Below are positions 550-27,230 of a stretch of DNA of 32,365 nt, piece by piece; positions within the stretch are counted from its first letter, which is position 1; each line of letters starts with the position of its first letter. A program made the position numbers and the translations under genes. The DNA is taken from IMG/VR virus record IMGVR_UViG_3300027851_000085, positions 1-32,365 of that record, one strand, 5' to 3'. The DNA comes from a virus. Under the pieces are notes generated by a model, which worked only from the letters and a program-made list of their open reading frames with translations, ran no database searches and was not told the DNA's origin.

Positions 550-2173
550 ACGATTAAGCTCACCAAAACAAACTAATCTACCTTGTCCACAAAAGAACTG
601 TCATTCAAGTGATGCCTTTGTTCTGTACGACGATGGACACGGATACTGCTTTTCATGTGCTACATCCGTCCAACCAAGGAGTACTATGAGTAAAGAACCT
701 AAAGAAAGTATGGACCTAGAGTACCAGCTAGAGAGTCCAGAACAGGCTCCAGAGACAGATGGGTCTTCGAAACAAATTATTGACGGTTGGCGTTCTTTGT
801 CAGCTAAAACTCAACAATTCTATGGAGCGTACTTTGATGTTGCACCAGATGGGGAGCCAAAACGGTTCACCTGCACCCATGCCAATGGGTCCAAACGTAT
901 TAGGAACGTACAAGATAAATCCTTTTTCTCGTCCGGTCCTATTAACGAAGGTGGCTTATTTGGGAAAGAACGTTTTAACGCTGGATCAGCTAAGGCAATA
1001 ACAGTTACGGAAGGTTACGAAGATGCTATGGCAGTATACCAAATGCTCGGCTCTAAGTACCCTGTAGTATCTGTTCGTTCCGCTTCTACCGCGAAGAAGG
1101 ACTGTAAATTAGATTATGAGTTTCTGAATTCCTTTGAGAAGATTTACCTTTGTTTCGATAATGATGAGCCGGGTCGCAAAGCCAAGCAGGATGTCGCCTC
1201 ACTCTTTGATTTTAATAAGATATATGATGTCCCTTTGACGAAATACAAGGATGCTAACGACTATCTTGTCAATAAGGAATCTGCATCCTTTCAGAACATT
1301 TGGTATAATTCTAAGAGGTTTTTACCTAAGGGTATTCTCTCCTCTTTCTCAGAATTTGATAAGGCTTTAGACGAAGAAGAAGACCAAGTACCCGTTGCCA
1401 CATTTCCATTCCCTACGTGGCAATCTATGTTCTATGGTATTAGACCTGAAATCTATCTTGTTACAGCGCAAGAGGGACAAGGAAAGACAGAGGTCTTTAG
1501 AGCTATCGAAAATCATTTACTTGAGTCCACGAATAACAAGATAGGTATTATCCACCTAGAAGAACCAAAGACACGGACTATTAAAGGTATCGCAGGGTAT
1601 AAATTAAAGTTACCCGTCCACTTACCGACTGTAGAAGTTTCAAAAGAAGATATTAAAAAAGCGTATCGTGAGGCCATTAAGTACGATGATAGAGTCCACA
1701 TCTATTCCCGTTTCGGGTCAGATGACCCTGATGTCATTCTAGATACTATTCGCTTCCTCGTGTCCGTCTGCGACTGTCGCTTCATCTTTCTCGACCACAT
1801 AACTATGATTGTTACGGGTCTTGAAGGTGAAGACGAACGTAAGAAACTAGACTATATCTCTACTAAATTAGATATGATGGTTGAAGAACTGAGGTTCACT
1901 TTATTTCTTATCTCACATATTAATGATGACGGTAAGACTAGAGGCTCTAGAAACATCTCGAAGGTAGCACACAATCACGTGAGAATTGAACGTAACATCA
2001 TTTCTAGTGATCCTGTTGAAAGAAATACAACTATTTGTACTATCTTTAAGAACCGATTTGGGGCTGAGACAGGACCAGCCGGTAAGTTATTCTTTGATAA
2101 AGAAACCTTTCTTCTATCGGAGGTAAGCCAAGAAGAAATAGACGCAAAAGCAACAGGAGGTGTACCATTTTAA
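542..2173 (+). CDS. Bifunctional DNA primase-helicase (T7 gp4-like)
   Basis: A 543-residue fused primase-helicase that unwinds the fork and lays RNA primers. From the N-terminus: a zinc-binding primase finger (Cys15, Cys20, Cys36, Cys39), a TOPRIM domain with the EGYED motif at 157-161 and DND at 206-208, then a RecA-like DnaB-family helicase with Walker A AQEGQGKT at 309-316, Walker B FLDH at 416-419 and the later SHI...RGSRNIS segment near 458-473. The size matches T7 gp4 (566 aa). I chose ATG 542 because the zinc finger begins right after it; a longer frame from 470 adds only sequence overlapping the upstream gene. A second in-frame ATG at 686 has its own Shine-Dalgarno and would give a finger-less helicase. 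The C-terminus ends GGVPF, like the SSB-like protein. Confidence 0.93.
   Translation: MLKRLSSPKQTNLPCPQKNCHSSDAFVLYDDGHGYCFSCATSVQPRSTMSKEPKESMDLEYQLESPEQAPETDGSSKQIIDGWRSLSAKTQQFYGAYFDVAPDGEPKRFTCTHANGSKRIRNVQDKSFFSSGPINEGGLFGKERFNAGSAKAITVTEGYEDAMAVYQMLGSKYPVVSVRSASTAKKDCKLDYEFLNSFEKIYLCFDNDEPGRKAKQDVASLFDFNKIYDVPLTKYKDANDYLVNKESASFQNIWYNSKRFLPKGILSSFSEFDKALDEEEDQVPVATFPFPTWQSMFYGIRPEIYLVTAQEGQGKTEVFRAIENHLLESTNNKIGIIHLEEPKTRTIKGIAGYKLKLPVHLPTVEVSKEDIKKAYREAIKYDDRVHIYSRFGSDDPDVILDTIRFLVSVCDCRFIFLDHITMIVTGLEGEDERKKLDYISTKLDMMVEELRFTLFLISHINDDGKTRGSRNISKVAHNHVRIERNIISSDPVERNTTICTIFKNRFGAETGPAGKLFFDKETFLLSEVSQEEIDAKATGGVPF
676..688 (+). promoter_or_regulatory. Internal ribosome site and start inside primase-helicase
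   Basis: AAGGAG at 676-681 is followed 4 bases later by ATG at 686, in frame with the primase-helicase at codon 49. Initiation here would make a 495-residue protein lacking the zinc finger but keeping TOPRIM and helicase. T7 gene 4 makes its short form gp4B from an internal start (codon 64) in the same way. That T7 behaviour is established; its use here is inference. Confidence 0.55.
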
Positions 2174-2691
2174 ACCGATTCATAGGACTGATACCAGTAC
2201 TAGCCTTAGCTTTAGTACTTCCCTTATCCTGCACTAGTGAGGGTTTTTGGTACAAGGGTGCCTCCGGTTCGACAGAACTTCGGGAATTGATTAAGGAAGC
2301 GGCTAAGACAGAGCCTCCCTCACGAATTGTGATAACCGAATCTTACGGTGGGTCTGTCGGTGGAACCTTAATTAACCTATTCTATCTAAAGAAATTAAAG
2401 GTCCCTCTAGTTTTAACAGGTAAATGTTATTCAGCCTGTACGTACTTTCTTAATGCCGATTTAGTTTGTTACACACAGGATACTGTATTCGGCTTCCATG
2501 GTGCATCACATAAGGACACACCTGATGTCCCAGATAAGGGTGTTAACAGTCAAACAATCTTATTGTACCCAATTAAATTACAAGAGTTCTTAGTACAGAC
2601 GAAGGCCCTCGAAACAACCAAGGTTCTCTGGATATTAAATGCGAAGGGTACAGCCGAACTTGACACAAGTAATAGAATTTGTCCCAACTAG
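2167..2691 (+). CDS. ClpP-class serine hydrolase-like lipoprotein, probable ATT start
   Basis: The frame contains a ClpP/crotonase-fold signature: GGS at residues 61-63 (oxyanion-type loop), candidate nucleophile Ser89 in CYSAC at 87-91, and His111 in GFHGA. The CxSAC and GFH pattern resembles ClpP-class proteins of the periplasm (COG3904 type). The first conventional start is TTG 2287, but the frame is open further upstream and there encodes a signal peptide: an Arg near the N-terminus, about 16 hydrophobic residues, then PLSC with Cys22 as a lipobox-like site. A strong AGGAGG at 2155-2160 lies 6 bases before ATT 2167, which I take as start (174 aa). The 5' end overlaps the primase by 7 bases. 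Substrate and role are unknown; a secreted phage hydrolase among replication genes is unusual. Confidence 0.65.
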   Translation: MLNRFIGLIPVLALALVLPLSCTSEGFWYKGASGSTELRELIKEAAKTEPPSRIVITESYGGSVGGTLINLFYLKKLKVPLVLTGKCYSACTYFLNADLVCYTQDTVFGFHGASHKDTPDVPDKGVNSQTILLYPIKLQEFLVQTKALETTKVLWILNAKGTAELDTSNRICPN

Positions 2692-4573
2692 AATTATAGC
2701 ATGTGACATAGAGACTAACGGTCTAGGTAATGATGCCACAATTGTTTGGGTGGTCTGTTGTGAGGATATTCGTACAAAAGAACAATGGACTTTTATCCGT
2801 CCAGATAAGGAACCTAAAGCCTTAGAAGAATTTGCTAGAACAGTTCGTACGTGGGTATTCCATAATGGTATAGCTTTTGACTGTCCTGTTCTCAAAAGAT
2901 TAGTTCCTTCGGTGCTAATAAACGAAGACGCTGTTTTGGATACACTAATTATTTCTAGATTATTTAGGTACGATGTCCAAGGTGGTCATTCCTTAGATGC
3001 TTGGTCTCAACGTTTACATGGACCACGCAAGGTAGAGCACGAAGACTGGACCCAATTTTCTGAGGCTATGGTTCATCGGTGTGTTGTTGATACCAGTATC
3101 ACAGCTTCTCTTTTTCGACGCTTCGAAAAACACATTGAACGAGATGAGTACAAAGATGCAGTACAATTAGAACATAAAGCCGCTCAGTTAAGCCAAAAGA
3201 TGCATGAGAATGGCTTTTGCTTTGATATAGAGGGTGCAAAGGAACTCCACAGCGAACTAACAAGACGCTCCCTGCGGATTCTCGAAGAACTACAACAGGA
3301 CTTTAAGTCTAAGCCAAGTTTTATTCGAGTAATAAATCCTAAGTGTACTAAATTTGGTACTATATCTAAAGTAGACTTCCGATGGACAGATGATTTAACA
3401 CCCTTTTCTGCAAACTGCCCCTTTTCTCTTATCGAATGGGAACCATTTAATCCAGATAGTCCTAAACAGATTGTTCAACGATTAAATCAAGCCGGTTGGA
3501 AACCCTTCGATAAGACAAAAGGCCATATAGAATATCTTAAATTGCCTAAGAGGCAACAAGATAACACCCGGTTGGAACACTTTTTAGAGTTCGGTTGGAA
3601 GGTTAATGAGGCTAACTTAGAGACACTACCACAGAATGCCCCTAAATCGGCCCACAAGCTCCGTGAGTACATTATTCTATCGTCCCGTGTGTCCACCTTG
3701 GTTGAATGGATAAGCGCGTACAGGGCCTCTACAGGGCGAATACACGGTATCTTTACTCCTATTGGCTCTTGGACTGGTAGGATGTCCCACAGTAAACCTA
3801 ACATGGCCAATATTCCTAGAATACAGTTTGATTCTGATGGGCCAATCTTAGGTTTGGAAGGTGGCTTCGCACATGAAATGCGTTCCTTATTCAAAGTCCC
3901 AGAGGGTGCTTTACTTGTGGGTGTGGACGCAGAAGGCATCCAATTACGTGTTCTGGCACATAAAATGGACGATGTACCTTTCACTAATGCTATCGTCTCA
4001 GGTCGAAAAGAAGATGGAACGGATGTACATACTCTGAACATGAAGGCATTGAATGTTACCGGCGTAGACCGGGATATGGCTAAGACATTCATCTATTCGT
4101 GGTTACTCGGGGCCGGCATTGGAAAAAGTGCTGTTGTTTTAAACTGCTCTATGGAAGAGTCTAAGAGAGCTAGAGATGACTTCGTTAAATCCTATCCCGG
4201 TCTAAAAAGGTTGAAAGAAAAACTAATACCGCAAGATGCTGCTAAAGGGTACTTCATAGGACTTGACAAGCGTCTTGTTCCGTGTCATAATGAACACCTT
4301 ATGTTGGCAGGATACCTACAAAATGGCGAGTCTGTAATCATGAAGTTAGCGAATGTTTTATGGCACGAACAATTGACTAAAGAAGGGATTCAGTTTAAGC
4401 AAGTAGACTTTGTTCATGATGAGTGGCAGACTGAGTGCTATACAATGGAAGATGCCCAAAGAATTGCTAGCGTACAGAAAGAAGCGATTGCCAAGGCTGG
4501 TGTACTGCTAAATATGAAATGTGCTCTATCCGGTTCTTCTTCCATTGGATTAACATGGGCCGATACACATTGA
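2639..4573 (+). CDS. Family A DNA polymerase with 3'-5' exonuclease (T7 gp5-like)
   Basis: A 644-residue replicative polymerase. The proofreading exonuclease shows Exo I DIE (Asp23, Glu25), Exo II HNGIAFD (Asp81) and Exo III with Asp151. The polymerase half has the GSWTGRMS...PNMANIPR segment at 376-394, motif A VGVDAEG (Asp430), the O-helix from Arg478 through Lys482 to Tyr486, and motif C VHDE (His593, Asp594, Glu595). Tyr486 aligns with E. coli Pol I Phe762 and T7 Tyr526. Leu490 sits where Pol I has Tyr766, which is unusual. The start at ATG 2639 overlaps the previous gene by 53 bases; a downstream TTG at 2660 is possible because the first conserved motif starts near residue 19. Confidence 0.95.
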   Translation: MRRVQPNLTQVIEFVPTRIIACDIETNGLGNDATIVWVVCCEDIRTKEQWTFIRPDKEPKALEEFARTVRTWVFHNGIAFDCPVLKRLVPSVLINEDAVLDTLIISRLFRYDVQGGHSLDAWSQRLHGPRKVEHEDWTQFSEAMVHRCVVDTSITASLFRRFEKHIERDEYKDAVQLEHKAAQLSQKMHENGFCFDIEGAKELHSELTRRSLRILEELQQDFKSKPSFIRVINPKCTKFGTISKVDFRWTDDLTPFSANCPFSLIEWEPFNPDSPKQIVQRLNQAGWKPFDKTKGHIEYLKLPKRQQDNTRLEHFLEFGWKVNEANLETLPQNAPKSAHKLREYIILSSRVSTLVEWISAYRASTGRIHGIFTPIGSWTGRMSHSKPNMANIPRIQFDSDGPILGLEGGFAHEMRSLFKVPEGALLVGVDAEGIQLRVLAHKMDDVPFTNAIVSGRKEDGTDVHTLNMKALNVTGVDRDMAKTFIYSWLLGAGIGKSAVVLNCSMEESKRARDDFVKSYPGLKRLKEKLIPQDAAKGYFIGLDKRLVPCHNEHLMLAGYLQNGESVIMKLANVLWHEQLTKEGIQFKQVDFVHDEWQTECYTMEDAQRIASVQKEAIAKAGVLLNMKCALSGSSSIGLTWADTH

Positions 4574-24053: not shown

Positions 24054-24482
24054 TTAACCTCTCAACATCATTTCTGCTAATTCTTTAGCTCGGGTGGGTG
24101 TCTGTGTGGCCCACTTAGAGTTCAACATACCATCGAAAGCATCCTGCCAGCGGCTATCTTCAATAGACTTTAGGGTCCGCTTAAAGTCTAATAGACCAGC
24201 GAGACCAAGTTGAAAACACATCTCGTACAGTACACGTTGTCGGGCATCTACGAGGTCAGTGACCCAAGGTAAAGCCTTCTGAACACTGGCTACACATTTA
24301 TTAATATCATTTAGCAATAAGTACTCAGCCTCATCAGAAGAAAGACCACCATTCTTTCGTGAGTCAATAAGTCTACCATAGCCGATAGTCCAGTAGCCCA
24401 AGTGATCTTGGTACGCAGCTAGAGAGAGGCCCTCGTGACGTTTAAGAGAGTCTAGGAGTTTATTCTTACTGAAAGAGTTCAA
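24054..24482 (-). CDS. Endolysin, T4 lysozyme-like GH24 muramidase
   Basis: A 142-residue lysozyme that cuts peptidoglycan at lysis. The catalytic triad is Glu17 (RHEG), Asp26 (YQDH) and Thr32 (YWTIGYG), with the 9- and 6-residue spacings of T4 lysozyme (Glu11, Asp20, Thr26). No signal peptide, so it needs the holin. It overlaps the upstream TM/coiled-coil gene by 4 bases and ends 1 base before the holin gene. Confidence 0.93.
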   Translation of the reverse strand: MNSFSKNKLLDSLKRHEGLSLAAYQDHLGYWTIGYGRLIDSRKNGGLSSDEAEYLLLNDINKCVASVQKALPWVTDLVDARQRVLYEMCFQLGLAGLLDFKRTLKSIEDSRWQDAFDGMLNSKWATQTPTRAKELAEMMLRG

Positions 24483-26282: not shown

Positions 26283-27230
26283 TTAAACAACCTGATCCGT
26301 ATCCGTGAGGATCGTGACTAAGTTTTCAGGACGGAAGAGTTTAAAACCGTACCGGCAGGTCGTGACGTACTCTTCACGCTGGAAGTCCTTGTTATAATCC
26401 GAGTCAACCTTAGGAGCCTGACGAAGCAGACCAACCACAGGAAGAACGTCCGATGTCGCCGAGAAGAACAGATTACCCACACCAGCAGTAGTTGTTACAC
26501 CACCAATGGTTTCATTAAGAGTAGGAAGATTCTGAGATGTGTACACGTCAAAACCATAGATGTTCTTAACAAACGACATACCTGTCGAGATGCCAGAAGC
26601 AACAATACCTTCCCAACGGGGATTATTCGATACGTTCACAATATTAGTGAGCGTATTGATTGTGTACTCTACAGACGGGTCAACAATAGCTACAAGGTTA
26701 GTTGTAGGAACGTTAGCTTTCTGAAGGGCAAACAGAGCCTTCGCAAAGTCCGTCACAGAGATCGTTTCATTAGTACCAGAACCAACAAAGCGATGATTTG
26801 CACCATTGATAGCGTTGACATTGCTTGCCGTTTGACCAGCAGGCCCTGCCGCGAGAAGATCAACTTCCATAGATTTCATAATGGCACGATTCTGGCGTGG
26901 TACAAAAGAGGCGATAAGGCGGGACATATAAAACGAGTCCTGCTTCTCTTTCTCCGTGATGTACGTAGCCGAAGACTTGTATTTGTTCACTGAGAATGTA
27001 AAGTTACCAGTGTCCATAGCGGTGTACTTAACCGCCTGATTTTCGGCATAATCAAGAACCTCGGCCTGACCAATACTCGGAATGTTCAGAGTATCGCCAT
27101 CAGGAAAGTCCGTAATCATATCGACGTAACGCAGACCGATCAGTTCATCTTCGAGCACTTCTTTCAACTGAGTGGACCAAAGATTTGAGCGAATCAGATG
27201 CTCCGTATTTTGTGTGCTAAAACCAGACAT
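26283..27230 (-). CDS. Major capsid protein (HK97-fold type)
   Basis: A 315-residue protein, the expected size and place for the podovirus major capsid protein, directly after the scaffold. The N-terminal region has an LRYVDMITDFPDGDTLNIPS strand-loop set and TYITEKEKQDSF; the rest is rich in short strands, with a glycine- and Asn-rich middle (FVGSGTNE). The C-terminus reads TTCRYGFKLFRPENLVTILTD. It has the best ribosome site of the late block, TAGGAGGAC 8 bases before the ATG, as fits the most abundant virion protein. Confidence 0.85.
   Translation of the reverse strand: MSGFSTQNTEHLIRSNLWSTQLKEVLEDELIGLRYVDMITDFPDGDTLNIPSIGQAEVLDYAENQAVKYTAMDTGNFTFSVNKYKSSATYITEKEKQDSFYMSRLIASFVPRQNRAIMKSMEVDLLAAGPAGQTASNVNAINGANHRFVGSGTNETISVTDFAKALFALQKANVPTTNLVAIVDPSVEYTINTLTNIVNVSNNPRWEGIVASGISTGMSFVKNIYGFDVYTSQNLPTLNETIGGVTTTAGVGNLFFSATSDVLPVVGLLRQAPKVDSDYNKDFQREEYVTTCRYGFKLFRPENLVTILTDTDQVV

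Follow-up and report, generated by a model that had tools for sequence, protein, structure and literature searches.

An exported protein of the ClpP fold appears to be translated from an ATT codon in the replication block of the viral DNA analyzed here. This DNA, hereafter the window, comprises one IMG/VR virus record (32,365 bases), possibly a fragment. The gene (2167-2691, plus strand; 174 amino acids, coordinates including the stop codon) was characterized by a family profile (E 5e-24), an AlphaFold2 model and a fold search. It lies between two other plus-strand genes, assigned by tblastn to phage primase/helicases (470-2173, upstream) and to phage family A DNA polymerases (2639-4573, downstream). 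The best overall explanation, which we regard as fairly probable, is that of an ATT-started, exported and membrane-held hydrolase, with Ser89 and His111 as its putative catalytic residues, that would act on the cell envelope.

Phage proteins with the ClpP fold are usually treated as cytoplasmic proteases or head-maturation enzymes. An exported and sometimes lipidated branch of this fold, common to phages and roseobacters and with no assigned function, offers a specific candidate for a role in exclusion or in taking over the envelope. Gene callers limited to ATG, GTG and TTG would give a truncated and seemingly cytoplasmic protein, masking the export signal.

Translation start

The reading frame is open from position 2101, after an upstream stop codon, and contains no in-frame ATG, GTG or TTG before TTG 2287. 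The original prediction had placed the start at an ATT located six bases past an AGGAGG and had held that every NTG start would discard the signal peptide. Both points are borne out by the sequence, with AGGAGG at 2155-2160, ATT at 2167-2169 (plus strand) and TTG 2287 as the first NTG codon in frame. The extended Shine-Dalgarno AGGAGGTG (2155-2162, plus strand), which sits in the 3'-terminal part of the helicase gene, matches the anti-Shine-Dalgarno over eight bases and is the top ribosome-binding site among about 36 window genes tested; the runner-up, upstream of the gene at 26283-27230, has six bases. Other long frames of the window with a strong Shine-Dalgarno at a like spacing are evident genes. 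The gene starting at ATT 2167 overlaps the helicase stop codon (TAA, 2171-2173), which suggests translational coupling to the helicase.

In Staphylococcus aureus, AUU and AUA starts are accompanied by extended Shine-Dalgarno sequences, and their output is about 10% of that from AUG (PMC13009471), and a strong Shine-Dalgarno was found in one of the four E. coli genes listed with an ATT start, namely infC (PMC1805508). The window gene would fit this pattern, combining a weak start with the strongest Shine-Dalgarno of the genome. It has the weak start and strong extended Shine-Dalgarno in common with infC and other AUU- or AUA-started genes (PMC13009471, PMC1805508); those, however, are conserved regulatory cases, whereas the ATT of the window is known from one contig.

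ATT 2167 is the best reading of the start, as judged from that one contig. Viral contigs searched with the exact DNA of the start region, or scanned with the window protein alone, gave no match, and no second sequence of the same phage was found, so that an error or a private mutation at the ATT is possible. The gene and its exported product would then be real and the ATT would have replaced an ordinary start, such as ATG; the ATG, GTG or TTG codons used by the phage relatives agree with this, as does the dependence on a single record with no close relatives found. The longest Shine-Dalgarno of the window is nevertheless located precisely here, which would make sense as compensation for a weak start codon, and the adjacent sequence shows no sign of error; we consider this alternative rather unlikely. 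Hardly any weight can be given to a -1 frameshift at the helicase end that would yield a helicase fusion. The two frames do overlap at CCATTTTAA; however, CCA_TTT_TAA is no slippery heptamer, a signal peptide following a helicase is implausible, and a full Shine-Dalgarno is present, and the fusion was rejected.

N-terminal export signal

From the ATT, the frame reads ILNRFIGLIPVLALALVLPLSCTSEG...ESYGGSVGG...GKCYSACTYF...GFHGA...RICPN, with Cys as codon 22, and the features originally described (Arg, a hydrophobic core, Cys22, GGS, CYSAC and GFHGA) are all present in the translation. The putative signal peptide or membrane anchor ILNRFIGLIPVLALALVLPLSC (2167-2232, plus strand) consists of an N-terminal Arg and a hydrophobic segment with an 11-residue hydrophobicity of 2.7, followed by the possibly lipidated Cys22. 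A six-frame scan of the window for Arg or Lys, a hydrophobic core and a small residue preceding Cys returned a single place, the N-terminus of this protein. In 60 Markov-random genomes such segments occurred at 0.13 per genome, none with a correctly placed GGAGG, a comparison that is indicative only, as the filter was designed after the hit had been seen.

An N-terminal signal or anchor is found at the corresponding place in all 15 phage relatives examined, and the roseobacter relatives, as listed, have a hydrophobic N-terminal segment too. Relatives without the upstream signal, which had been named in advance as evidence against the longer frame, were thus not encountered among these phages. 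Export of the window protein is strongly supported, the signal being part of the product if translation starts at or close to 2167.

Lipidation at Cys22 is likely, though not secure, the alternative being an uncleaved anchor. The -3 residue of a lipobox is usually Leu, Val, Ile or Ala; in the LPLSC of the window, Ser at -1 and the Cys conform to the pattern and Pro at -3 departs from it, so that the lipobox-like site initially proposed stands in its Ser-Cys part and breaks the usual pattern at -3. Lipobox or near-lipobox sequences characterize 3 of the 15 phage members, namely the first copy in Phosso (LSTGC), L144 (VSGC) and L143 (CAC), which resemble lipoproteins.

Predicted fold and conserved residues

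The AlphaFold model, built from a 60-row alignment, has a pLDDT of 82 and a pTM of 0.76. Its best PDB matches in Foldseek are ClpP (E 8e-6), and VIA-align superposes 145 residues on ClpP with a Z of 12.3 and 9-12% identity. The predicted structure is therefore of the ClpP fold and not one lacking a ClpP/crotonase fold, the outcome that would have spoken against the original prediction. At the cut-offs used, no ClpP-family model in Pfam or NCBIfam matched the window protein, and sequence searches of the PDB returned no useful relative; weak matches to a phosphoglucose isomerase model, Carb_kinase and Abhydrolase_6 were judged to be chance.

The fold alignments with ClpP start at residues 13-25, and DSSP places the first strand (residues 27-31) and the first helix (residues 36-47) at 2245-2307 on the plus strand. 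TTG 2287 is codon 41, preceded by strand 1 and part of helix 1, so a start there cuts into the fold. A cytoplasmic protein made from TTG 2287, with the signal segment as chance untranslated sequence, has in its favour that this is the first NTG in frame. Such a protein would lose the first strand, part of the first helix and the signal segment seen in all phage relatives examined, and the eight-base Shine-Dalgarno at 2155 sits 124 bases away; this reading was rejected as very improbable. Three independent lines, namely the predicted structure, the relatives and the segment scan, indicate that the part upstream of TTG 2287 is translated.

Three conserved features mark the putative active site, all on the plus strand. 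Gly61-Gly62 (2347-2352) is invariant in the alignments and takes the place of the oxyanion-hole glycines of ClpP. The motif C87-x-S89-x-C91 (2425-2439), which takes the form CxS[AT]C in the family and has Ser89 as putative nucleophile, is invariant in both the 13 and the 60 sequences, as is His111 of the GFHG motif (2497-2499), the putative catalytic histidine. By the order of these motifs, Ser89 and His111 would correspond to the nucleophile and histidine positions of ClpP. The 60-row alignment shows an invariant Cys172 and a nearly invariant Cys101, while in the 13-row alignment, which proved too diverse for a pattern scan, the C-terminal Cys and Cys101 are absent from some phage members. 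The four invariant or near-invariant cysteines would suit an oxidising periplasm, with some phage members having fewer than four.

It is conceivable, if somewhat unlikely, that the domain serves as a non-enzymatic binding or structural module of the envelope: the putative nucleophile sits between cysteines, and the 60-row alignment revealed no Asp that could complete a catalytic triad. Invariance of Ser89, His111 and the glycine pair even in very distant members argues for an enzyme instead. For the serine hydrolase first suggested, it is the invariant Ser and His that speak in its favour. Compared with ClpP (peptidase family S14), the window protein shares the predicted fold and likely the same Ser and His positions; it differs in its low identity, in being exported and cysteine-rich and in having no Clp ATPase.

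Family and taxonomic distribution

A family profile built without the window protein retrieves it with an E of 5.2e-24, the next frame having an E of 2. PHROG 19619, of unknown function, is matched by all 13 of the first members, and its profile reaches the window protein with an E of 0.0049. Direct tblastn matches are weak (Phosso, E 9e-3; roseobacter plasmids, as low as 2e-4). A search of the literature on the ClpP-like family, COG3904 and phage AUU starts returned nothing directly relevant, so that the earlier statement that no such phage system had been described holds for function; the family itself, however, is already in PHROGs as 19619.

Phage members were identified in Bradyrhizobium phage BDU-MI-1, Rhizobium phage Paso, Nostoc phage NMeng1, Sinorhizobium phage Phosso and Agrobacterium phage Atu_ph07, and in several other viral contigs along with L004, and two phage records label their members "putative secreted protein". 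The PHROG 19619 members of BDU-MI-1, Paso and NMeng1 have in common with the window protein the GG pair, CxSAC, the His, small size and an N-terminal signal; they differ in being very divergent from it, in their ordinary start codons and in having mostly plain signal peptides. In the tree, phage and roseobacter proteins separate (96/97), and the window protein groups with Phosso and Atu_ph07 (95/89), although the branches are very long and its placement is unsure. These nearest proteins, also exported and ClpP-like, differ in length (about 200 amino acids), in belonging to jumbo phages and in lying outside a replication operon. Phosso has two tandem divergent copies (L002, 3827-4429 and 4478-5119), one with a clear lipoprotein signal.

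Among cellular genomes, at least 80 Rhodobacterales loci carry a family member, often near polysaccharide genes. These small signal-peptide proteins, encoded on chromosomes and plasmids and often near exopolysaccharide genes, share the fold motifs and cysteines of the window protein; they differ in having plain signal peptides and a conserved GFHGPS, and in being cellular. Among 289 genomes sampled from the class there were only eight matches, some of them weak, and the cellular family thus looks concentrated in Rhodobacterales. A search of genome contigs with the alignment of the Bradyrhizobium phage and L004 proteins found no relatives. In four roseobacter plasmids (L025, L026, L028 and L019) a metallophosphoesterase gene lies directly 3' of the ClpP-like gene, and a similar gene is present in 29 of 80 genomic loci.

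Genomic context and possible function

By tblastn, the primase/helicase and polymerase most resemble their counterparts in rhizobial phages and in Cobavirinae of roseobacters, among them CRP-4 and ICBM1/2. In relatives the slot between helicase and polymerase is filled by differing accessory genes, including those for a metallophosphoesterase and a uracil-DNA glycosylase, so that the ClpP-like gene is an accessory gene inserted where the content varies. L004, a phage with related replication genes (polymerase 44% identical), carries its ClpP-like gene outside this slot, just before ribonucleotide reductase; a PADLOC Argonaute model match to L004 was weak and judged to be chance. The genes of both NMeng1 and L004 are located among replication and nucleotide genes, and that of Paso in the region ahead of the primase.

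The endolysin gene of the window (24054-24482) is in a late block on the minus strand, whereas the ClpP-like gene belongs to the plus-strand replication block, an arrangement that points to a role during replication and not in lysis. A lysis protein, be it a timing factor or an outer-membrane spanin-like lipoprotein, would be consistent with an exported and possibly lipidated product; the separation from the endolysin gene, together with the gene positions in NMeng1, L004 and Paso, makes it improbable, and the suggested role in lysis timing is accordingly disfavoured.

In the preferred explanation of an envelope hydrolase, the long Shine-Dalgarno, probably helped by coupling to helicase termination, would permit initiation at ATT 2167, while the weak start codon probably holds the dose low. 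The N-terminal signal would export the product, which may be membrane-held either as a lipoprotein or by an uncleaved anchor, placing the ClpP-fold domain in the periplasm, where the conserved cysteines could stabilize it. There it would serve as a serine hydrolase using Ser89 and His111, in all likelihood a peptidase, and act on a protein of the envelope in the replication phase, with superinfection exclusion or modification of the host envelope as plausible outcomes. The polysaccharide neighbourhood of the cellular relatives lends weak support to an envelope role. As a more speculative generalization, phages of alphaproteobacteria may repeatedly carry a periplasmic hydrolase of the ClpP class, stabilized by cysteines, whose action remodels the host envelope in the replication phase and whose dose is set, in the phage of the window, by an AUU start coupled to translation of the helicase.

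Several minor features of the locus were also noted. Small frames in the helicase-polymerase slot of two relatives resemble a lipoprotein (LLMGCSHP; Rhizobium phage RHph_N3_19, L023 5361-5498) and a membrane protein (ICBM2, L022 2761-2997), respectively. The polymerase gene of the window overlaps the 3' end of the ClpP-like gene, and its start may be read as ATG 2639, with a poor Shine-Dalgarno, or as TTG 2660, with AAGG at a better spacing. Within the primase/helicase gene, an internal in-frame ATG at 686, directly past the zinc-finger cysteines, is preceded by AAGGAG four bases upstream and could give rise to a short form devoid of the zinc finger, for which gp4B of phage T7 provides a comparison.
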